From Aureimonas frigidaquae (GTDB taxonomy: Bacteria; Pseudomonadota; Alphaproteobacteria; Rhizobiales; Rhizobiaceae): DNA of 64,000 bases. The notes beneath the pieces were generated by a model. The model made no database searches. It had not been told where the DNA came from and saw only the letters and a list, made by a program, of their open reading frames with translations. The translations under genes and the position numbers were made by a program. Of the stretch, positions 53,621-63,065 are shown piece by piece; the first letter of the stretch is position 1; each line of letters opens with the position of its first letter. The stretch lies in contig NZ_BBWR01000008.1 in assembly GCF_001463905.1 (NCBI RefSeq), positions 186,001 to 250,000 on the forward strand. Reading direction: 5' to 3'.

Positions 53621-53652
53621 TTGACATCTGCGCCAAGCTGCGCAAGCATAAT
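53621..53652 (+). promoter_or_regulatory. Possible amiC promoter with internal inverted repeat
   Basis: TTGACA at 53621-53626 and CATAAT at 53647-53652, separated by 20 bases, which is longer than the ideal 17. Between them is TGCGC-CAAGCT-GCGCA (53629-53644), a 5-bp inverted repeat that could be an operator or, if transcribed, another 6-base-loop hairpin. Start of the amide operon transcript is placed just downstream by inference. Confidence 0.35.
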
Positions 53653-53660
53653 AATTAAGC

Positions 53661-53724
53661 GATGGGCAGCGTTGCCTATTATATCGCCAGCTGATCAATC
53701 CTTGTTGTCTGGGCATCGGAGCCC
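53661..53724 (+). promoter_or_regulatory. Tandem hexaloop RNA hairpins: candidate ANTAR antiterminator element
   Basis: Two hairpins with six-base loops. First: GATGGGC (53661-53667), loop AGCGTT, GCCTATT (53674-53680), seven pairs including two G-U. Second: GGGC (53711-53714), loop ATCGGA, GCCC (53721-53724). Both loops have A at position 1 and G at position 4, the signature recognised by ANTAR proteins. The second touches the stem of an intrinsic terminator. They lie in the leader of the operon that encodes an ANTAR protein, so self-regulation is likely. Confidence 0.65.
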
Positions 53725-53753
53725 TCCCGGCCTTTCGGCGCGGGGGTATTTTT
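53724..53753 (+). terminator. Intrinsic terminator in the leader of the amide operon
   Basis: Stem from 53724-53732 (CTCCCGGCC) with 53737-53746 (GGCGCGGGGG), loop TTTC, nine pairs with one bulged G and one G-U, followed by TATTTTT. It lies only 13 bp before the amiC start codon, so it would stop transcription before the operon unless it is prevented from forming. Confidence 0.6.
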
Positions 53754-53766
53754 GGTTTGGCAGGTC

Positions 53767-54921
53767 ATGCGCACCTACCCGGTCGGTATACTTTTCTCGT
53801 CAACGGGGTCCTACGGGGCTGTCGCGCGGACCATGCGCAACGGCGCCCTCCTGGCCTGTGACGAAATCAACCGCGATCCGCGCTTCGCCTTTGCCTTGGC
53901 CCCCATCGAAGCCGATCCCGGCAGCGAACTTTCCGCCTATGCGCCGGCCATCGGCGCGATGCTGGACCAGGGCGCCCGGCATGTCGTGGGCTGCTACACT
54001 TCGTCGAGCCGCAAGGACATCATCCCCATCGTCGAGAAGCGCGACGCGCTCCTGTGGTACCCGACGCATTACGAGGGCTTCGAGAGCGCCTCTAACGTGA
54101 TCTACACGGGTGCGGCCCCCAACCATCACATGATGCCGCTGATCGACCATCTGGTCGCCCGCCATGCCACCCGCGTCTTCTGCGTCGGCTCCAACTATAT
54201 CTGGGCCTGGGAAAGCAACCGCGTGATGCGCGAAGCCATGTCGGAGCGCGGCGGCACGGTCCTGGCGGAGCACTACCTTCCCGTCGGCGATACGGACCTC
54301 GATCACGTGATCGACGCGATCCTGCAGCATCAGCCCGATGTCGTCTTCAACACGCTGATCGGCCGCTCGGCCTATGCCTTCTTCGAGAGCTTCCGGGCGG
54401 CGTGCCGGGCGCGCGGGATCGACCAGGCGCAGCGTTTCCCGATCGCAAGCTGCAACCTGTCGGAACCCGAACTCCTGGCGATCGATCCCACCGCGCGGGA
54501 CGGGCATGTCAGCGCGAGCGTCTACTTCGCGTCGATCAGGACGCCGCGCAACGCGGCCTTCGTGGCGGCCTATGACGCGGCCTATCCATCCGGTCCTGCC
54601 GTCTCGGCCGAGGCCGAAGCCGCCTATCTGGCGACATGGCTCCTGGCCGAGGCGATTGCCGCGGCCGGCACCGACGACATCGCCGCCGTACGGGACGCGG
54701 CGCCGCGCAAACGACTGGATGCGCCACAGGGCGCCGTCTGGCTCGATCCGGCGACGCTCCATGCGCATCTGACCCCCCGGATCGGCCTGTCCCGGGCGGA
54801 CGGCCAGTTCGACATCCTTTTCGAGGCCGCCGAGCCGATGAAGCCGGATCCCTACCTTGTCGAAACGACGAGCCGGCTTGCGCTGCCGCGCGGTCGTCCG
54901 CGCCTGAGGGTCGTATCATGA
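53767..54921 (+). CDS. amiC: Cytoplasmic amide sensor, AmiC-like
   Basis: A 384-residue periplasmic-binding-protein homologue of the AmiC/UrtA class without a signal peptide (MRTYPVGILFSSTGSYGAVA), as in Pseudomonas AmiC, which holds the antiterminator AmiR inactive until an amide binds. YTSSSRKDIIPIVEKRDALL and WYPTHYEGFESASNVIYTGA are family motifs. I chose ATG 53767; a TTG 15 bp upstream is possible but falls in the terminator tail. The stop overlaps the amiR ATG. Confidence 0.88.
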   Translation: MRTYPVGILFSSTGSYGAVARTMRNGALLACDEINRDPRFAFALAPIEADPGSELSAYAPAIGAMLDQGARHVVGCYTSSSRKDIIPIVEKRDALLWYPTHYEGFESASNVIYTGAAPNHHMMPLIDHLVARHATRVFCVGSNYIWAWESNRVMREAMSERGGTVLAEHYLPVGDTDLDHVIDAILQHQPDVVFNTLIGRSAYAFFESFRAACRARGIDQAQRFPIASCNLSEPELLAIDPTARDGHVSASVYFASIRTPRNAAFVAAYDAAYPSGPAVSAEAEAAYLATWLLAEAIAAAGTDDIAAVRDAAPRKRLDAPQGAVWLDPATLHAHLTPRIGLSRADGQFDILFEAAEPMKPDPYLVETTSRLALPRGRPRLRVVS

Positions 54922-55544
54922 GCCAGGTGCGTCCGATCCAGAATTTCAGCGGCAAATGCGCCCATGTGGCGACCGCCGACGAGCGCGCCATGGCGGCGCT
55001 CGGCACGATGCTGCCGAAGTTCGGCATGCATGTCGCGCGGCTTTCGCTGGCCGAGGGCGGTCTGCAACCCATGGTTCCGCAGGGTGACATCGTCTTCGTG
55101 GATGGTGATCTGCCCGACCTGCGGCAGTTGCGGCTCGGACCGGACAATGCCGCTCCGCCCATGCCGGTGATCGGCCTCATCGGCGTCGAAGCGCCGAGCC
55201 GCCTGCGCCTGCTGGTGGACCTTGGCACGGCAGCCTTCCTGCCCAAGCCTATCCATTCCGGTTCCGTCTTTTCCGCCTTGTATCTTGCGGCCTGCCAGCA
55301 TGAGCGCCGGCTCAGCCTGGAGGCAACGGTGGAAGAGCTGGACATGCGCCGCCGCAAGCGGCGCCACGTCATCAAGGCCGTCACGCTCGTCATGCGGATG
55401 GACGGGCTCGACGACGATGCTGCCTTCCAGAAGCTTCGGCGCCTGGCCATGCAGGCTCGGGTGCCGATCGAGACATACTGCGAAATCGTCGTCCAACGCT
55501 GCACGACGCAAGCCGACCGCGAAGCGAAAGCGACAGGCCTTTAG
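54918..55544 (+). CDS. amiR: ANTAR-domain antitermination regulator, AmiR-like
   Basis: A 208-residue RNA-binding regulator. The N-terminal part is a receiver-like fold without phosphorylation site; a coiled-coil (LSLEATVEELDMRRRKRRHV) leads into a C-terminal ANTAR domain (about 140-200) whose conserved three-helix pattern is seen in IKAVTLVMRMDGLDDDAAFQ and KLRRLAMQARVPIETYCEIV. Such proteins bind tandem hexaloop hairpins and block terminators. It is coupled to the amiC sensor, and its probable target lies in the leader of the same transcript (53661-53753). Confidence 0.9.
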   Translation: MSQVRPIQNFSGKCAHVATADERAMAALGTMLPKFGMHVARLSLAEGGLQPMVPQGDIVFVDGDLPDLRQLRLGPDNAAPPMPVIGLIGVEAPSRLRLLVDLGTAAFLPKPIHSGSVFSALYLAACQHERRLSLEATVEELDMRRRKRRHVIKAVTLVMRMDGLDDDAAFQKLRRLAMQARVPIETYCEIVVQRCTTQADREAKATGL

Positions 55545-55585
55545 GCCGGCGCGGAAACGACAGTCTGACCCAAAGAGGTGTTTCA

Positions 55586-56815
55586 ATGAGGACATGCGCA
55601 ACCGGCGCCCTAGTGGCGCTCGGCACGATGCTTGCCGCCCCGACTTTCGCTCAGGAGCCCATCAAGGTGGGCGTTCTGGAGGATCAGTCCGGCGACTTCG
55701 CCGCCGCCACCATCGGCAAGGTCCACGCCATCGAGCTGGCCGCGGACGAGATCAACGCTGCCGGCGGCATTGCCGGGCGTCCGATCGAGCTGATCGAGTA
55801 CGACACGCAGTCGGACAATACCCGCTACCAGGAGTTCATGCGCCGCGTGCTCCAGCGCGACAAGGCAGATGTCGTCTTCGCCGGCTTCTCCTCTGCCTCG
55901 CGGGAGGCGTACCGCCCCATCGTGAACCAGTTCGACGGGCTGGCCTTCTACAACAACCAGTATGAGGGCGGCGTCTGCGACGCCAACATGATCGTCACCG
56001 GCGCGGTTCCCGAGCAGCAGTTTTCCACGCTCATACCCTGGATGATCAAGGAATACGGCCCGAAGATCTACACGATCGCGGCGGACTACAATTTCGGCCA
56101 GATCTCGGCCGAATGGGTGCGCAAGATCGTGGCCGAGAACGGTGGAGAGATGGTGGGCGAGGAGTTCATCCCGCTCGGCGTGTCGCAGTTCTCGCAGACC
56201 ATCCAGAACATCCAGAACGCCCGGCCCGACGTCGTCGTGACGCTCCTGGTCGGCACGGCGCAGGCCTCCTATTACGAGCAGGCCGCCGCCGCCAACCTGA
56301 ACCTGCCCATGGCCTCGTCGGTCAATGTGGGCCAGGGCTACGAGCACAAGCGCTTCACGCCGCCCTCGCTCGCCAACATGTACGTGACGACCAACTACAT
56401 CGAAGAGGTCGACACCCCGGCCAGCAAGGCCTTCGTGGAAAAGTTCAAGGCCAAGTTCCCGGACGAGCCCTACATCAACCAGGAAGCGGCGAACTCCTAC
56501 ATCGCGCTCAATCTCTACAAGATCATGGTCGAGCGGGCCGGCGGCTCCACCGACCGGGAAGAGCTGCGCAAGGTGATCGCGAAGGGGGATGTCTGCTTCG
56601 ACGGACCGTCCGGCAATGTGTGCCTCGACCCCAAGAGCCAGCACATGTCGCACAATATCTACCTGGCCAAGGTCAACGAGGATCACTCGATCAGCTTCCC
56701 GACCTCGTGGGAGAACATCAAGCCCTACTGGCTCGGTGAAGCCGGCTGCGATCTGACCAAGTCCGATCCGAGCGCCCAGTACACGCCGAGCAATCCTCCG
56801 CCCGCCGCCAACTGA
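55586..56815 (+). CDS. Periplasmic urea/short-chain amide binding protein (FmdD/UrtA-like)
   Basis: A 409-residue binding protein with a signal peptide (MRTCATGALVALGTMLAAPT, then FAQ) and the UrtA/FmdD arrangement: IKVGVLEDQSGDFAAATIGK at the start of the mature protein, YDTQSDNTRYQEFMRRVLQR, and IAADYNFGQISAEWVRKIVA. Ligand: urea or short amides. Four Cys near the C-terminus could form two disulfides. First structural gene after amiR; a strong intercistronic hairpin follows. Confidence 0.9.
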   Translation: MRTCATGALVALGTMLAAPTFAQEPIKVGVLEDQSGDFAAATIGKVHAIELAADEINAAGGIAGRPIELIEYDTQSDNTRYQEFMRRVLQRDKADVVFAGFSSASREAYRPIVNQFDGLAFYNNQYEGGVCDANMIVTGAVPEQQFSTLIPWMIKEYGPKIYTIAADYNFGQISAEWVRKIVAENGGEMVGEEFIPLGVSQFSQTIQNIQNARPDVVVTLLVGTAQASYYEQAAAANLNLPMASSVNVGQGYEHKRFTPPSLANMYVTTNYIEEVDTPASKAFVEKFKAKFPDEPYINQEAANSYIALNLYKIMVERAGGSTDREELRKVIAKGDVCFDGPSGNVCLDPKSQHMSHNIYLAKVNEDHSISFPTSWENIKPYWLGEAGCDLTKSDPSAQYTPSNPPPAAN

Positions 56816-56901: not shown

Positions 56902-57777
56902 GTGACGGACGTCCTCTACGCCGCCTTCAGCTTCCTTTATCAGGCGGGCGATGCCTTCGCCTTCCTGGTCCTTTCCGCCTGCGGTCTTGCGATCATCTTC
57001 GGCATGATGGGCGTCATCAATCTCGCGCATGGGGAGTTCATCCTGTGCGGGGCCTATGTTTCCGCCAGCGCCGCCCGCATGGGCCTGCCCCTGCCGCTGG
57101 CCATCCTGGCCGGCGCCGTGGTGGCCGGGCTCGTCGGCATGGTGCTGGAGCGTCTCATCATCCGCCACCTTTATGACCGTCCGCTCGACACGATCGTCGC
57201 CACCTGGGGCATCTCGATGATGGCAACGCAAGGCACGCTTATCCTGCTCGGCTCCACCATGCCGGGGACGGGCACGCCGCTCGGCAGCTTCACCGTGGGG
57301 CCCTATTCCTATTCGCTCTACCGGCTGGTCCTGATGGGCTCGGCGCTGGCGCTTCTGGCCGTCCTGTGGCTCGTCTTCACCAAGACACGGTTCGGGCTCC
57401 TGGCGCGCGCCACGATCCAGGTTCCGCATATGAGCCGGGCGCTCGGCGTCAATACGGGCGTCGTCTACAGCCTGACCTTCGGCCTCGGCGCGGCGCTGGC
57501 CGGACTGGCCGGGGGCCTCTACGCACCGACCATGACCTTGGTGCCGACCATGGGCAGCGCCTTCGTAGTCGAGGCCTTCGTGACCGTCGTGGTCGGCGGC
57601 GCGGACATCTTCCTCGGCACGGCGCCGGCAGCGGCGATCCTCGGCATCGTGAAGGCGGCGCTGACATCCTGGCAGGGGCAGCTGGCCGGCCAGATCGGGC
57701 TGCTCGTCTCCGTGATCATCGTCATCCGGGTCCTGCCGCGGGGTATCTCCGGCTGGATCCTGCGGGAAAGGGCCTGA
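56902..57777 (+). CDS. Branched-chain/urea-type ABC permease (UrtB/FmdE-like)
   Basis: A 291-residue LivH/UrtB permease with about eight TM helices. GVINLAHGEFILCGAYVSAS is near residues 37-56, the cytosolic coupling segment is RALGVNTGVVYSLTFGLGAA, and the later GGADIFLGTAPAAAILGIVK is conserved in UrtB. Begins at a GTG (GTGACGGACG) after a GGGAG Shine-Dalgarno. Confidence 0.9.
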   Translation: MTDVLYAAFSFLYQAGDAFAFLVLSACGLAIIFGMMGVINLAHGEFILCGAYVSASAARMGLPLPLAILAGAVVAGLVGMVLERLIIRHLYDRPLDTIVATWGISMMATQGTLILLGSTMPGTGTPLGSFTVGPYSYSLYRLVLMGSALALLAVLWLVFTKTRFGLLARATIQVPHMSRALGVNTGVVYSLTFGLGAALAGLAGGLYAPTMTLVPTMGSAFVVEAFVTVVVGGADIFLGTAPAAAILGIVKAALTSWQGQLAGQIGLLVSVIIVIRVLPRGISGWILRERA

Positions 57778-57778
57778 C

Positions 57779-58858
57779 GTGACCGCTTCCACTTCCAAAC
57801 CCCGTTGGATCGCCCTCCTCGAAGGTCCGCAGACGCTCGGGAAGGGGCCTGGCTTCTGGAGCCTCTTTGCCCTGGTCGTCGCGGCCGCCTGCGCCTATCC
57901 GCTCTTTGCGGACGGCTACGATGTCGGCAACAACGTCTACTTCTTCAACTGGCTCTTCATGGCGCTGGGGCTCAGCCTGATCTGGGGCTATGGCGGTTCG
58001 CTCTCCTTCGGCCAGACGGCTTTCTTCGGGGTCGCGGCCTATGCCTACGGCGTCCTGTCGATCAATCTGGGCGATGCTTACGGCCTGACGCTCTTCTCGC
58101 TCCTGGCGGCGGTCTGCGTGTCGGCGCTCTTTGCGGCGATCCTGGGCTACTTCCTGTTCTTCGGCCGGATCAGCGGCGTCTTCCTGGGCATCGTCACCCT
58201 GTCGATCACGCTGGTGCTGGAGCGTTTCATGGCCCAGACGGCGGGCCCGGAATGGCGCATCGGCGCGGCGCGGCTGAACGGCTTCAACGGGATGGGCGGC
58301 ATGCCGTCTCTGACCGTGCCCTGGTTCGGCGGCGACATCGCCCTCTACCCGGACGTGCCGCTCTATTACCTCACGCTGGCGCTGCTCGTGATCGTCTATC
58401 TGGCGCTGCGGATGCTGGTGAATTCGCGCTTTGGCAACGTCCTCGTGGCCATCCGCGAAAATCCGCAAAGGGCCGAAATGCTGGGCTACGACATCCGCCG
58501 GTATCAGCTCGTCGCCTTTGTGATCGGCTCCTCGCTCGCCGGGCTCTCGGGCGTGCTCTACACGTCCTGGGGCAACTACATCACCCCGGCCTCGATGGGC
58601 ATGACGGCGGCCTCGCTGCCGATCGTCTGGGTCGCCGTCGGCGGCCGCAGCGACCTGACGACCACGCTTCTGGGCACTTTGGCCGTGCTCGTCGGCTTCC
58701 AGGCGCTCACCGTGCATGGCAGCCAGTATGCACTCGTGGTCATGGGCGCACTTCTGGTGGTCACCGTGCTGGCCGCACCCAATGGCCTCATCTTTGGCCT
58801 GGCAACCCTGTTTTCCGGGCGGCTGCGCCGCAAGGTCAAGGCGCGGGAGGAGGTGTAA
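57779..58858 (+). CDS. Branched-chain/urea-type ABC permease (UrtC/FmdF-like)
   Basis: A 359-residue LivM/UrtC permease. N-terminal TMs, then LSLIWGYGGSLSFGQTAFFG near residues 65-84, the coupling loop VAIRENPQRAEMLGYDIRRY, and GGRSDLTTTLLGTLAVLVGF near the C-terminus. Begins at GTG 57779, one base after the upstream stop. Partner of the preceding permease. Confidence 0.9.
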   Translation: MTASTSKPRWIALLEGPQTLGKGPGFWSLFALVVAAACAYPLFADGYDVGNNVYFFNWLFMALGLSLIWGYGGSLSFGQTAFFGVAAYAYGVLSINLGDAYGLTLFSLLAAVCVSALFAAILGYFLFFGRISGVFLGIVTLSITLVLERFMAQTAGPEWRIGAARLNGFNGMGGMPSLTVPWFGGDIALYPDVPLYYLTLALLVIVYLALRMLVNSRFGNVLVAIRENPQRAEMLGYDIRRYQLVAFVIGSSLAGLSGVLYTSWGNYITPASMGMTAASLPIVWVAVGGRSDLTTTLLGTLAVLVGFQALTVHGSQYALVVMGALLVVTVLAAPNGLIFGLATLFSGRLRRKVKAREEV

Positions 58859-59574
58859 TGGCCATGTTGCAAACACGCGCACTCGACAAGTGGTTCGGTG
58901 GCCTGCACGTCACCGACAAGGTCGACTTCGAGCTGCCGGCGGGCGAGGTGCACTGCCTGATCGGCCCCAACGGGGCCGGCAAGAGCACCTTCTTCCGGCT
59001 GATCCTGGGCGAGCATCTTCCGAGCGGCGGCTCGATCCACTTCGACGGGCACGACATCACGAGTGCCAAGCCCTTCGCCCGCATCCGCCGCGGCATCAGC
59101 GTGAAGTTCCAGGTTCCAGGGATCTTCAAAGCGCTGAGCGTGCGCCAGAACCTCGTCATCGCCCTGCAGGATCACCATGCCCCGGCGCATCTGGGCGAGG
59201 AGGTGGACCGTCTCCTCGAGTTCCTGAACCTTTCGCAGGCTGACCGGCAGCTTGCCGGCAATCTCAGCCACGGCCAGAAGCAGTGGCTTGAAATCGGCAT
59301 GGCGGTCGGGCTGCGGCCCAAGCTCCTGCTGCTGGACGAGCCCACGGCCGGCATGACGCCCGACGAGACCTTCGCCACCGGAGAGATGGTCCAGGCGCTG
59401 AACCGCGAGGGTGTCACCGTGCTGGCCGTCGAACACGACATGGCCTTCGTGCGCCAGATCGCCCAGCGCGTGACCGTGCTCCACTTCGGCAAGATCTTCG
59501 CGCAGGGGACGATCGACGAGATCGTCGCCGACGAGCGGGTCGCCGCCATCTACCTGGGAGAGAGCCATGACTGA
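58858..59574 (+). CDS. Urea/amide-type ABC ATPase (UrtD/LivG-like)
   Basis: A 238-residue ATPase. Walker A GPNGAGKST near residue 37, Q-loop in VKFQVPGIFKALSVRQNLVI, signature LSHGQKQWLEIGMAVGLRPK (the form typical of UrtD), Walker B LLLLDEPTAGMTPDE and H-loop VEHDMAFV. The Gln/Trp after the signature motif separates UrtD/amide ATPases from LivG. ATG overlaps the permease stop by one base. Confidence 0.93.
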   Translation: MAMLQTRALDKWFGGLHVTDKVDFELPAGEVHCLIGPNGAGKSTFFRLILGEHLPSGGSIHFDGHDITSAKPFARIRRGISVKFQVPGIFKALSVRQNLVIALQDHHAPAHLGEEVDRLLEFLNLSQADRQLAGNLSHGQKQWLEIGMAVGLRPKLLLLDEPTAGMTPDETFATGEMVQALNREGVTVLAVEHDMAFVRQIAQRVTVLHFGKIFAQGTIDEIVADERVAAIYLGESHD

Positions 59575-60283
59575 CGGCTCCATACTGACGACGCGCGGGC
59601 TGTGGTCCGGCTATGGCGGCAAGCCGGTCCTGCAAAGCGTGGACATGGATGTGCGGGAAGGCGAGATCGTCGCCGTGATCGGCCGCAACGGGGTCGGCAA
59701 GTCCACCCTGATGAAGAGCCTGATCGGCCTGATCGCGACGGCCAAGGGCTCCATCGCCTATCGCGGCCAGTCTGTGGACAGGCTGGGCGCGAACCGGCGC
59801 GCAAGGCTGGGCATCGGCTACGTTCCGCAGGGGCGTGACGTGTTCCCGCGCATGACCGTGCTCGAAAACCTGCTTGTCGGGCAATCGATCAGCGGCCGCG
59901 CCGCGCCGAAGGACCTCATGGACCGGATCTTCGGTTACTTCCCCATCCTGGCGGAGCGCCGCGGGCAGCGCGCCGGCACGCTGTCGGGCGGGCAGCAGCA
60001 GCAGCTCGCCATTGGCCGGGTGCTGATGGGCACCCCCTCGATGATCCTGCTGGACGAGCCCTCGGAAGGCATCCAGCCCAACATCGTCCAGGATATCGCC
60101 CGCATCATGGTGGAGCTGAACGCGACGACGGGCGTCACCATCGTCTTCGTCGAGCAGAATATCGACATGATCCGCATCATGGCGCAGCGCTGCTACGTCA
60201 TGGACAAGGGCCGCATCACCGACGAGATCGCCCCGCACGTCCTGGAAGACCGCGCCGCCGTCCGGCGCTTCCTGGCGGTCTGA
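59567..60283 (+). CDS. Urea/amide-type ABC ATPase (UrtE/LivF-like)
   Basis: A 238-residue ATPase with Walker A GRNGVGKST near residue 38, Q-loop GYVPQGRDVFPRMTVLENLL, signature LSGGQQQQLAIGRVLMGTPS, Walker B MILLDEPSEGIQPNIV (a UrtE-specific form) and the last H-like region IVFVEQNIDMIRI. Overlaps the UrtD-like gene by eight bases. With the four preceding genes it completes a five-component importer. Confidence 0.94.
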   Translation: MTDGSILTTRGLWSGYGGKPVLQSVDMDVREGEIVAVIGRNGVGKSTLMKSLIGLIATAKGSIAYRGQSVDRLGANRRARLGIGYVPQGRDVFPRMTVLENLLVGQSISGRAAPKDLMDRIFGYFPILAERRGQRAGTLSGGQQQQLAIGRVLMGTPSMILLDEPSEGIQPNIVQDIARIMVELNATTGVTIVFVEQNIDMIRIMAQRCYVMDKGRITDEIAPHVLEDRAAVRRFLAV

Positions 60284-60319: not shown

Positions 60320-61318
60320 ATGAGCTGGTTCGACGATTCCATCATGGCCAAGAAAGGCGTTGCGCGCGGCAAGGCCGGACAGACCCACACGATCACCGAG
60401 GCCGAGCAGGGCACCTATCATTACGTCTACAGCCCGTTCCCCAAGCCCGTCCTGACCGTCGATCCGGGCGCCGTCATCGTGGCCGAAACGCATGACGCCT
60501 TCGAAGGCAAGATCCGGCACGAGACGGACCGCCCGAGCGAGATCCTGAACTTTCCCTATCTCAACCCGCAGAACGGGCCGATCTATGTGAACGGCGCGCA
60601 GAAGGGCGATTGCCTGGCGGTCTACATCCACAGCGTCGTTCCGCGCGGGCCCCAGCCGGTCGGCACCACCGTCATCATGCCCGAATTCGGCGGACTGGTC
60701 CCCACGGCCGATACCGCCATGCTGACCGCGCCGCTGCCCGAGACCGTTCGCAAGCTGAACGTCACGCCCGAGGGCGGCGTCGTCTGGAACGAGCGGATCA
60801 CCCTGCCATACGAGCCCTTCATCGGCACCATCGGCACCGCGCCGGAGATCGAGGCCATCTCATCGCTCGTGCCGGATTACTACGGTGGCAACATGGACCT
60901 TCCGGACGTGGCGCCGGGTGCGGTCGTCTACCTGCCGGTCAATACGGAAGGGGCCTATCTCTACCTGGGAGATTGCCATGCGGCGCAGGGCGATGGCGAG
61001 CTGTGCGGCGTTGCCATCGAGCATCCGACGGTCACGACGGTGCAGGTCGACCTGATCAAGGGCTGGACGATCCGCTCGCCCCGGCTGGAGAATGACCGCT
61101 TCTACATGACGATCGGCTCGGCCCGGCCCATGGAGGACGCGGCCCGCGGCGCCTATCGCGAGCTTATCCGCTGGATGGCGGCCGATTTCGGCTTCGACGA
61201 GGTCGATGCCTACATGCTGCTGACCCAGTGCGGGCGCATCCGCCTCGGCAACATGGTGGACCCCAAATACACGCTGGGCGCCTCGGTCCTGAAGACCATC
61301 GCCGGCACGCCGCGCTGA
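60320..61318 (+). CDS. fmdA: Acetamidase/formamidase family amidohydrolase
   Basis: A 332-residue FmdA/AmdA-family enzyme that hydrolyses formamide or short amides to the acid and ammonia. Conserved blocks: ILNFPYLNPQNGPIYVNGAQ, IHSVVPRGPQPVGT, YGGNMDLPDVAPGAVVYLPV, LYLGDCHAAQGDGELCGVAI with a metal-ligand His, and the C-terminal YMLLTQCGRIRLGNMVDPKY. A GGAGGA Shine-Dalgarno precedes the ATG at 60320. Directly after the importer, it should use the imported amide. Confidence 0.9.
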   Translation: MSWFDDSIMAKKGVARGKAGQTHTITEAEQGTYHYVYSPFPKPVLTVDPGAVIVAETHDAFEGKIRHETDRPSEILNFPYLNPQNGPIYVNGAQKGDCLAVYIHSVVPRGPQPVGTTVIMPEFGGLVPTADTAMLTAPLPETVRKLNVTPEGGVVWNERITLPYEPFIGTIGTAPEIEAISSLVPDYYGGNMDLPDVAPGAVVYLPVNTEGAYLYLGDCHAAQGDGELCGVAIEHPTVTTVQVDLIKGWTIRSPRLENDRFYMTIGSARPMEDAARGAYRELIRWMAADFGFDEVDAYMLLTQCGRIRLGNMVDPKYTLGASVLKTIAGTPR

Positions 61319-61337: not shown

Positions 61338-63065
61338 ATGCCCGCCAGCTTCACGGCAGCCGCCGTCCAGTTCGAGCCGCAACTGGCCATGAAGGAGCGC
61401 AACCTTGCCGCGCTGCTGGCGCTGGCGCGGGATGCCGCCGATGACGGCGCCAGCCTGATCGTCCTGCCGGAAATGGGCACGACGGGCTATTGCTGGCACG
61501 ACCGCCAGGAGGTCGCGCCCCATGTCGAGCCGGTTCCCGGCCCGACGACGGAGCGCTTCTCACAACTGGCGGCCGAGCGCGGCGTCTATCTGCTGGTCGG
61601 CATGCCGGAGGTCGATCCGGCGACGAACCTCTACTATAACAGCGCCGTCCTGATCGGGCCGCAGGGGGTGATCGGCACGCACCGCAAGACGCATCCCTAC
61701 ATTTCGGAGCCCAAATGGGCCGCCAGCGGCAATCTCGGCCACCAGGTGTTCGAGACGCCGCTGGGCCGGCTGTGCCTGCTCATCTGCATGGATATCCACT
61801 TCGTGGAAACGGCGCGGCTGGCGGCGCTGGGCGGCGCGGATGTCATCTGCCACATTTCCAACTGGCTCGCCGAGCGCACGCCCGCGCCCTACTGGATCAA
61901 CCGCGCCTTCGAGAATGGCTGCTACCTGGTGGAGAGCAATCGCTGGGGGCTCGAGCGGGGCGTCCAGTTTTCCGGCGGAAGCTGCATCATCGGCCCCGAA
62001 GGCGACATCCTCGCCTGTCTCGACCGGGGCGACGGATATGTGCTGGCCGAAATCGATCCGGCCCGCGCACGCGCGCGGACCCTGTGGGGCGAGCCGATCA
62101 TGGCGCGGCGCAGGCCCGAGCTCTACGCCGAGCTGATGACCAACACTTTCGCCTGGAACCCGCGGGACTTTTTCGGCCTCTATGGCCACGAGCCGATGCC
62201 GGACGGGCGCCCCGCACGGCTTGCGGTGGCAGAGTTCGCGCCAACGGACCGCATCGCGGGCAACCTTGCCTCCATGCTGGAGCTGGCCGGCCGTGCCAGC
62301 GCCACCGGCGCGGACCTCCTGGTCCTGCCGGAGCTCTGCCTGACGGGCCTGAAGGACCCAGCCGCCCATGCCGTGGATTGCAGCGATCCGGCCTTCGCCG
62401 CGCTGCAGGCGGCGGTGGACAAGGACGGGCTGTGCCTCGTCTTCGGCTTTGCCGAACGGCGCGGCGCGCTCTTCCACAACAGCGCGGCCTGCCTGCGGCC
62501 CGGACAGGCGCCCGTCCTGTACCGCAAGATCCACCTGACAGGTGAGGACGAAGCCTGGGCCAGTGCGGGGGAAGACTGGGTCTGCGTCGATACGGATTTC
62601 GGCCGGATCGGGCTTCTCGTCGGCTTCGATGCCAGCATTCCCGAAGCCGGCCGCATTCTGGCCCTGCGGGGCGCCGACATCCTGGCCTGCCCGGCGGCGG
62701 TAAAGGGCCGGTTCCATGCCGCCCACGCGGGAACGCAGATCACCCAGCCGGACCCCATTCCCACCGGGCCGGATCCGATGCACTGGCACCAGTATCGCGT
62801 GCGGGGCGGAGAGAACAACTGCTACTTCGCCTTCGCCAACGTCGTCGACGCGCAAGAAGGCTATCCCGGTTTGAGCGGCGTCTTCGGTCCCGATACCTTC
62901 GCCTTTCCGCGCCAGGAGGCGATCGCGGGGCCCAATGATCCGCTCGTCTCCTGCGCGGTCGATACGCGCCATGTCGGCGGGCCGTACCCGACCCATGTCG
63001 TCCGCCGCAAGGACCTCGTCCTGATGCGCCAGCCGCATTTCTACGAGGCACTGGTTCGGCCGTAA
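61338..63065 (+). CDS. Tandem-domain nitrilase-superfamily amidohydrolase
   Basis: A 575-residue protein made of two nitrilase/amidase folds. Domain 1 (about 1-275) has the complete Glu45-Lys117-Cys150 triad (LPEMGTTGYCW, HRKTHPYISE, LLICMDIHFVE). Domain 2 (about 292-560) keeps Glu332 (LPELCLTGLKD) and Lys397 (YRKIHLTGEDEAW), but the cysteine position is Gly429 (LLVGFDASIPEAGR), so it should be inactive. It starts 19 bp after fmdA and probably hydrolyses a further amide, nitrile or N-carbamoyl intermediate of the pathway. Few nitrilases have two domains. Confidence 0.9.
   Translation: MPASFTAAAVQFEPQLAMKERNLAALLALARDAADDGASLIVLPEMGTTGYCWHDRQEVAPHVEPVPGPTTERFSQLAAERGVYLLVGMPEVDPATNLYYNSAVLIGPQGVIGTHRKTHPYISEPKWAASGNLGHQVFETPLGRLCLLICMDIHFVETARLAALGGADVICHISNWLAERTPAPYWINRAFENGCYLVESNRWGLERGVQFSGGSCIIGPEGDILACLDRGDGYVLAEIDPARARARTLWGEPIMARRRPELYAELMTNTFAWNPRDFFGLYGHEPMPDGRPARLAVAEFAPTDRIAGNLASMLELAGRASATGADLLVLPELCLTGLKDPAAHAVDCSDPAFAALQAAVDKDGLCLVFGFAERRGALFHNSAACLRPGQAPVLYRKIHLTGEDEAWASAGEDWVCVDTDFGRIGLLVGFDASIPEAGRILALRGADILACPAAVKGRFHAAHAGTQITQPDPIPTGPDPMHWHQYRVRGGENNCYFAFANVVDAQEGYPGLSGVFGPDTFAFPRQEAIAGPNDPLVSCAVDTRHVGGPYPTHVVRRKDLVLMRQPHFYEALVRP

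Follow-up and report, generated by a model that had tools for sequence, protein, structure and literature searches.

The operon examined here, from Aureimonas frigidaquae, begins with genes for an AmiC-like amide sensor and an AmiR-like antiterminator, and the question it raises is whether the short leader in front of amiC is an RNA attenuator on which the AmiR-like protein acts, i.e., whether the regulator controls the transcript that carries its own gene. Leaders of this type, with two hexaloop hairpins recognised by ANTAR proteins, were defined by Ramesh et al. (2012; PMC3369931), who reported matches upstream of urea transporters. An earlier inspection of the DNA without database searches (the sequence-only reading) had proposed such self-targeting together with an amide-triggered feedback loop. 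The window, i.e., the whole stretch of DNA that was analysed, comprises 64,000 nucleotides. We regard it as highly probable that the leader is an AmiR-type ANTAR attenuator which heads the operon of its own regulator and acts as a self-amplifying switch.

Elements of the leader and the operon

The following elements were located in the window:

53621-53649, forward strand: promoter-like site recognised by conservation, with TTGACA (53621-53626), a 17-nt spacer and AAGCAT (53644-53649)
53659-53687, forward strand: hairpin P1, with GGGC (53664-53667), the loop AGCGTT (53668-53673), GCCT (53674-53677), a 5-nt bulge and the outer stem GCGAU/AUCGC (53659-53663 paired with 53683-53687)
53688-53710, forward strand: linker separating the two hairpins, measuring 23 nt when counted from the outer stem of P1, 33 nt when counted from the inner stem and 41 nt loop to loop
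53711-53724, forward strand: hairpin P2, with GGGC (53711-53714), the loop ATCGGA (53715-53720) and GCCC (53721-53724)
53724-53753, forward strand: intrinsic terminator, with a 9-bp stem (53724-53746) including one bulged G, and TTTTT (53749-53753)
53767-54921, forward strand: amiC-like amide sensor (Peripla_BP_5; best solved relative AmiC of P. aeruginosa, 1PEA, E 8e-75)
54918-55544, forward strand: amiR-like ANTAR antiterminator (ANTAR 37.5 bits, above the cut-off; AmiR_N 25.1 bits, below the cut-off of 27)
55586-56815, forward strand: urtA-like substrate-binding protein (family matches)
56902-60283, forward strand: urtBCDE-like permeases and ATPases (families matched, NCBIfam cut-offs not reached)
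60320-61318, forward strand: FmdA/AmdA formamidase-acetamidase family protein (family match)
61338-63065, forward strand: amidase with two carbon-nitrogen hydrolase stretches (family match)

Direct reading of the sequence confirmed the positions given earlier for both hexaloops and the terminator, which ends 13 nt before the ATG of amiC (53767). Both loops carry A at position 1 and G at position 4 (A1 and G4) and are hexaloops on stems of at least 3 bp, as described for ANTAR targets (PMC3369931); a terminator following P2 and an ANTAR protein encoded in the genome, two further characteristics of such leaders, are present as well. On the protein side, an AmiC-like amide-binding protein adjoins a pseudo-receiver ANTAR protein, of which the AmiR_N score lies just below the Pfam cut-off and the best solved relatives are Rv1626 (1S8N), EutV (6WSH) and AmiR (1QO0). 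Judged by likeness to 1PEA and 1QO0, an amide is the probable ligand and a complex of AmiC and AmiR may be formed here. The gap between amiR and urtA (55545-55585) measures 41 nt, and the terminator scan listed none within it, which is in keeping with a single transcript.

Three residues of EutV were compared. Tyr164 of EutV stacks on G4 (PMC8934654) and, by our own count of the alignment, has its counterpart in Phe170 of the AmiR-like protein. The counterpart of Arg142 is Arg148, which is invariant among 13 AmiR sequences. Lys149 is replaced by Val155 and is therefore not conserved in kind, a point which counts against the ANTAR-attenuator reading.

The combination of two A1/G4 hexaloops on 4-bp stems within 60 nt and a terminator was found once in the window and in none of 60 dinucleotide shuffles, by a search rule which was formulated after the site had been seen and which permits the bulge of P1. 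Without the terminator criterion, six tandem pairs occurred in the window versus a mean of 7.1 in the shuffles. Tandem hexaloops are thus frequent by themselves, and the weight therefore rests on the terminator and on conservation. The fold check that had been suggested for the leader gave a mixed result: the terminator and P2 were supported by folding, but the energy of the whole leader was no better than that of shuffles (z 0.28) and the minimum-energy fold closed the loop of P1 down to four bases, so that folding energy alone would have missed the leader. An Rfam search of the window yielded no match reaching the gathering scores.

Conservation and covariation in relatives

For the comparison, 297 genomes of the same family were searched for AmiR, which resulted in 12 clear orthologs besides the window (40-52% identity); further relatives came from 297 genomes of the order. 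A scan of the contig collection with the single AmiR sequence found no relative; the scan with an alignment of AmiR orthologs (A1) gave 80 named loci, representing the best 80 of 134. From the genome searches, leaders were inspected at the AmiR loci L003-L015 and L113-L142, and L016-L032 as well as matches without a locus were left out. An amiC-like gene was present in 123 of the 123 loci checked. Removal of repeats left 105 distinct leaders, from which ten belonging to weaker AmiC paralogs (L133-L142, 38-45%) were dropped, resulting in 95 leaders including the window. According to the genus names, we take their sources to be mostly Alphaproteobacteria, with Pseudomonas (L071) and Salinicola (L074) in addition. 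Among the best 80 of the 134 loci, amiC and amiR are adjacent without exception, and the order amiC-amiR-urtABCDE-fmdA is found in 77; L062 and L101 lie on short contigs and L040 has a different order.

The hairpins are widely conserved. In the 94 orthologous leaders other than the window, a pattern search detected P1 in 90, P2 in 93 and both in 89 (P1 was missed in L071, L105, L131 and L132, P2 in L115), and the outer stem of P1 with its 5-nt bulge occurs in relatives as well. The distance from the first T of TTGAC to the start of the P1 loop is 47 nt in the window and in 72 of the 89 relatives with both hairpins. Since TTGACA is conserved at a fixed distance from P1, we predict that transcription starts around position 53656, a few bases 5' of P1. 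A start downstream of 53680, which would speak against the attenuator, is accordingly unlikely on this prediction. A generic promoter scan found no promoter and did not list the TTGACA site.

The loop signature is less strict than the hairpins themselves. Position 1 of the P1 loop is A in 87 of 90 relatives and position 4 is G in 57; the respective numbers for P2 are 56 and 72 of 93, and only 34 of the 89 relatives keep A1 and G4 in both loops. The departures follow clades. The 32 leaders from Bradyrhizobium, Rhodopseudomonas and Tardiphaga all start their P2 loop with G rather than A, and G4 is missing from both loops in eight others, which come from Actibacterium, Celeribacter, Paracoccus and Thioclava (L051, L053, L056, L065, L073, L086, L099, L109).

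Covariation was analysed in an alignment (A3) of 42 non-redundant leaders out of the 44 with short linkers, which ends at P2 and from which the window and the 45 leaders with long spacing were left out; an alignment including the terminator (A2) was set aside, its gaps having fallen within P2. In these 42 leaders all six outer-stem pairs of P1 show changes on both sides, and at pair 8-19, 26 leaders have A-U and 16 have G-C, with zero mismatches. Double changes amount to 42 cells versus 17 in shuffles. For four of five covariation measures the value lies above that of nearly all shuffles and of every slid version of the alignment; for the fifth, further pair types, the controls are not surpassed (its value was reached by 32 of 500 shuffles and exceeded by two slid versions). 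Pairing holds in only 73% of the outer-stem cells, with failures at the end pairs of this stem (1-31 in 21 of 39, 6-26 in 20 of 42 leaders). Pairs 9-18 and 10-17 and three pairs of P2 are invariant, partly through the pattern used for selection, and are thus uninformative. In the window, GCGAU/AUCGC stands in place of the commonest outer stem, GCGCA/UGCGC. The hairpins are hence both conserved and, in the case of P1, covarying, and their absence from relatives, which would have spoken against the sequence-only reading, was not observed.

A covariance model (R1) built from the 42 relatives, with the window held out, found this leader at 53658-53724, scoring 39 bits (E 8e-8); the next match within the window reached 16.9 bits (E 0.015). 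In the 4.1 Mb genome the leader was the sole clear match (E 5e-6, next 0.03), with 150 of 1647 first-look candidates scored, so that a weaker second leader could be missed. The genomes of L033, L051 and L074 gave one strong match each, identified by its coordinates as the amiC leader; as these three belong to the training set of R1, the result is informative only for the absence of a second strong match. No strong match was obtained in the genomes of L071 and L067, both of which contain orthologs, a probable consequence of training R1 on leaders with short linkers.

Spacing, terminator overlap and known systems

In the Pseudomonas amiE system (amiEBCRS), AmiC and AmiR are homologous to the proteins described here, and the leader, as read, likewise combines a TTGACA-type promoter, P1 and P2 at a distance of 41 nt and a terminator. 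It precedes amiE, with another gene lying between amiE and amiC, whereas the leader in the window stands directly before amiC-amiR, and a urea-type importer and other amidases follow downstream, unlike in the Pseudomonas operon. The two Pseudomonas-type loci that were read (L199 and L200, AmiC 82-83% identical to 1PEA) agree with the earlier statement that the leader precedes amiE in Pseudomonas. Their loops were assigned as AACGGC for P1 and AAAUGG for P2, 41 nt apart (L199 computed, L200 by eye). As the latter loop lacks G4, against the statement of A1 and G4 for the P. aeruginosa leader by Ramesh et al. (PMC3369931), this assignment may be off; the minimum-energy fold of the Pseudomonas-type amiE leader contains neither hexaloop. 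Premature 3' ends in the amiE leader have been reported (PMC8297930).

The eut leaders of Enterococcus faecalis, recognised by EutV, share two A1/G4 hexaloop hairpins before a terminator with the leader described here. EutV is activated by phosphorylation, whereas AmiR is freed from AmiC, and the linker of 5-12 nt (PMC3369931) differs from the 23-33 nt in the window. With a linker of 14 nt, induction of a EutV leader was drastically reduced (PMC3369931), and antitermination in vitro was lost once the linker had been extended by 20 nt (PMC8934654, published 2022). In Paracoccus denitrificans, NasT and the nasA leader represent an alphaproteobacterial sensor-ANTAR pair with a two-hairpin leader (PMC5424462, PMC3795266), in which mutating the second hairpin changed little (PMC5424462). 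Unlike in the operon described here, nasTS is transcribed there as its own unit, located upstream of the leader, without self-inclusion (PMC5424462). A Klebsiella plasmid carries amiC-amiR operons with ABC transporter genes (PMC13209695, published 2026); the accessible part of that paper mentions no leader. On another Klebsiella plasmid (L198:3860-3980), a hairpin AGGT-AATGAA-GCCT and a terminator were seen by eye directly before amiC of an amiC-amiR-permease operon.

The linker of about 30 bases had been considered a weak point of the self-targeting proposal. This concern fades in the light of the Pseudomonas-type amiE leaders, which as read have the same 41 nt, and of the relatives, in which the loop-to-loop distance is 36-46 nt in 44 of 89 and 59-92 nt in the other 45, for example L063-L112 (Bradyrhizobium group) and L048, L052, L059 (Kaistia). 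In 37 of the 45 long linkers there is a stretch CCAAC...GTTGG (or GCTGG), a potential hairpin, and subtracting it leaves a spacing of 33-36 nt in 36 leaders and of 9 nt in a single one. For the remaining eight, where the stem is less certain, the spacing left is 16-68 nt. A long linker thus looks normal for AmiR-type leaders as far as their sequences tell. Only tentatively do we suggest that these leaders have their own spacing rule, with about 33-46 nt loop to loop and additional linker mostly folded away, and with G4 and even A1 of P2 drifting by clade.

The overlap of P2 with the terminator was described earlier as a single base, and this holds: in the window only the fourth C of the P2 arm is shared and none of GCC lies within the terminator stem. 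This is unusual, since 2-3 nt of the arm (GCC) are part of the stem in 82 of the 88 relatives with a terminator by rule. The P2 of Pseudomonas, as read, lies inside the terminator stem. P2 and an 8-bp version of the terminator can coexist in the window (-20.3 kcal/mol for both), so that plain mutual exclusion would be weak here. In the window, a protein sitting on P2 would have to act against the terminator through its size or through timing, and less through exclusion.

Alternative readings and the proposed switch

Hexaloops of the ANTAR class are read by several ANTAR proteins, and an attenuator in this position could be served by a protein other than the neighboring AmiR. Two ANTAR genes above the Pfam cut-off are encoded in the genome, one of them within this operon. 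The second (G000:C2:296749-297213) likewise lies behind an amiC-like gene (41% identity), together with which it forms the pair L001 (G000:C2:295568-297213), so that the leader might be acted on mainly by this second AmiR-like protein or shared by both. This second pair, however, possesses a different leader of its own (L144:1374-1500), consisting of a TTGACG site, a hairpin GGC-ATTCGC-GCC and a terminator. Its first hairpin differs, no clear A1/G4 P1 was found in it by eye, and it is absent from the listed R1 matches, for which 150 of the 1647 candidates were scored. In relatives, moreover, it is the adjacent amiC-amiR pair that leaders of the window type precede. We therefore consider a main or shared role of the second protein improbable; one AmiR per leader is the simplest reading. 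The second pair precedes permease genes which are Dpp-like in appearance.

The hairpins might also act on translation or RNA stability, the terminator being a by-product. ANTAR matches near ribosome-binding sites were mentioned by Ramesh et al. (PMC3369931), and five relatives with P2 fail the terminator rule (L006 of Aurantimonas, L007 and L035 of Rhizobium, L041 of Shinella and L088, a MAG), with weak stems in L034 and L038. But a terminator by rule is present in 88 of the 93 relatives with P2, and the stem in the window is stable (-15.6 kcal/mol) and followed by five U, which makes this alternative very unlikely for the leader of the window. Leaders of Rhizobium, Neorhizobium and Shinella (L007, L034, L035, L038, L041) contain P1 and P2 by pattern with a weak terminator or none, and may perhaps use another mode, possibly translation. 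Least probable of all is an ordinary terminator of the upstream gene accompanied by chance hairpins: stem-loops of such size are common and the leader folds with an ordinary energy, but the conserved promoter-like site lies between the upstream ORF and P1, no shuffle reproduced the arrangement, and the hairpins are conserved and covary. Chance hairpins and a terminator of the upstream gene were thus rejected. A riboswitch was also considered and rejected.

Self-targeting by AmiR is the best reading of what was observed, namely the RNA elements, which are conserved and covary in relatives, and the order of the genes. Transcription would start at about 53656 and, without inducer, mostly end at the terminator before amiC. 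Leak-through would supply some AmiC and AmiR, which would hold each other in an inactive complex. Binding of a short-chain amide (such as formamide or acetamide) to AmiC would free AmiR, which would then contact P1 and subsequently P2 on the nascent RNA and keep the terminator from stopping the polymerase. The resulting read-through would provide more AmiC and AmiR and, in addition, the UrtABCDE-like importer and the amide-splitting enzymes. The proposal of an AmiR acting on its own leader is hence supported by the covarying hairpins, the hold-out model and the ANTAR domain of the second gene, and binding to the leader and the amide-triggered feedback are what we infer from it. Feedback is not special to this arrangement and not new in principle, because amiC and amiR of P. 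aeruginosa already belong to an operon switched on by AmiR (PMC5259723).

The mechanism, the ANTAR attenuator, is likewise already known (PMC3369931), and the present leader is a new case of it. As far as the literature was searched, in which subscription papers are mostly outside coverage, no earlier report of an amiC-amiR-urt-fmd leader was found, and to this extent the breadth of its distribution, its spacing and its loop drift are new. Given the matches at urea transporters, some of these leaders may already be contained in Table S2 of Ramesh et al. (PMC3369931).

The rules for the RNA in AmiR-type antitermination so far derive mostly from EutV and NasR. With 94 leaders besides the window, 89 of which have both hairpins by pattern, a comparative set for AmiR-type antitermination is now available, characterized by a conserved spacing that clearly exceeds the one in EutV leaders and by a clade-wise drift of the loop signature. 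If the spacing rule holds, AmiR would read the hairpin pair with a geometry unlike that of EutV, whose leaders fail when the linker is lengthened, and the self-including amiC-amiR-urt-fmd attenuators would represent a distinct ANTAR subtype across Alphaproteobacteria. The findings lead to the prediction that the uptake of amides or urea in many Alphaproteobacteria would be run by a self-amplifying RNA switch.
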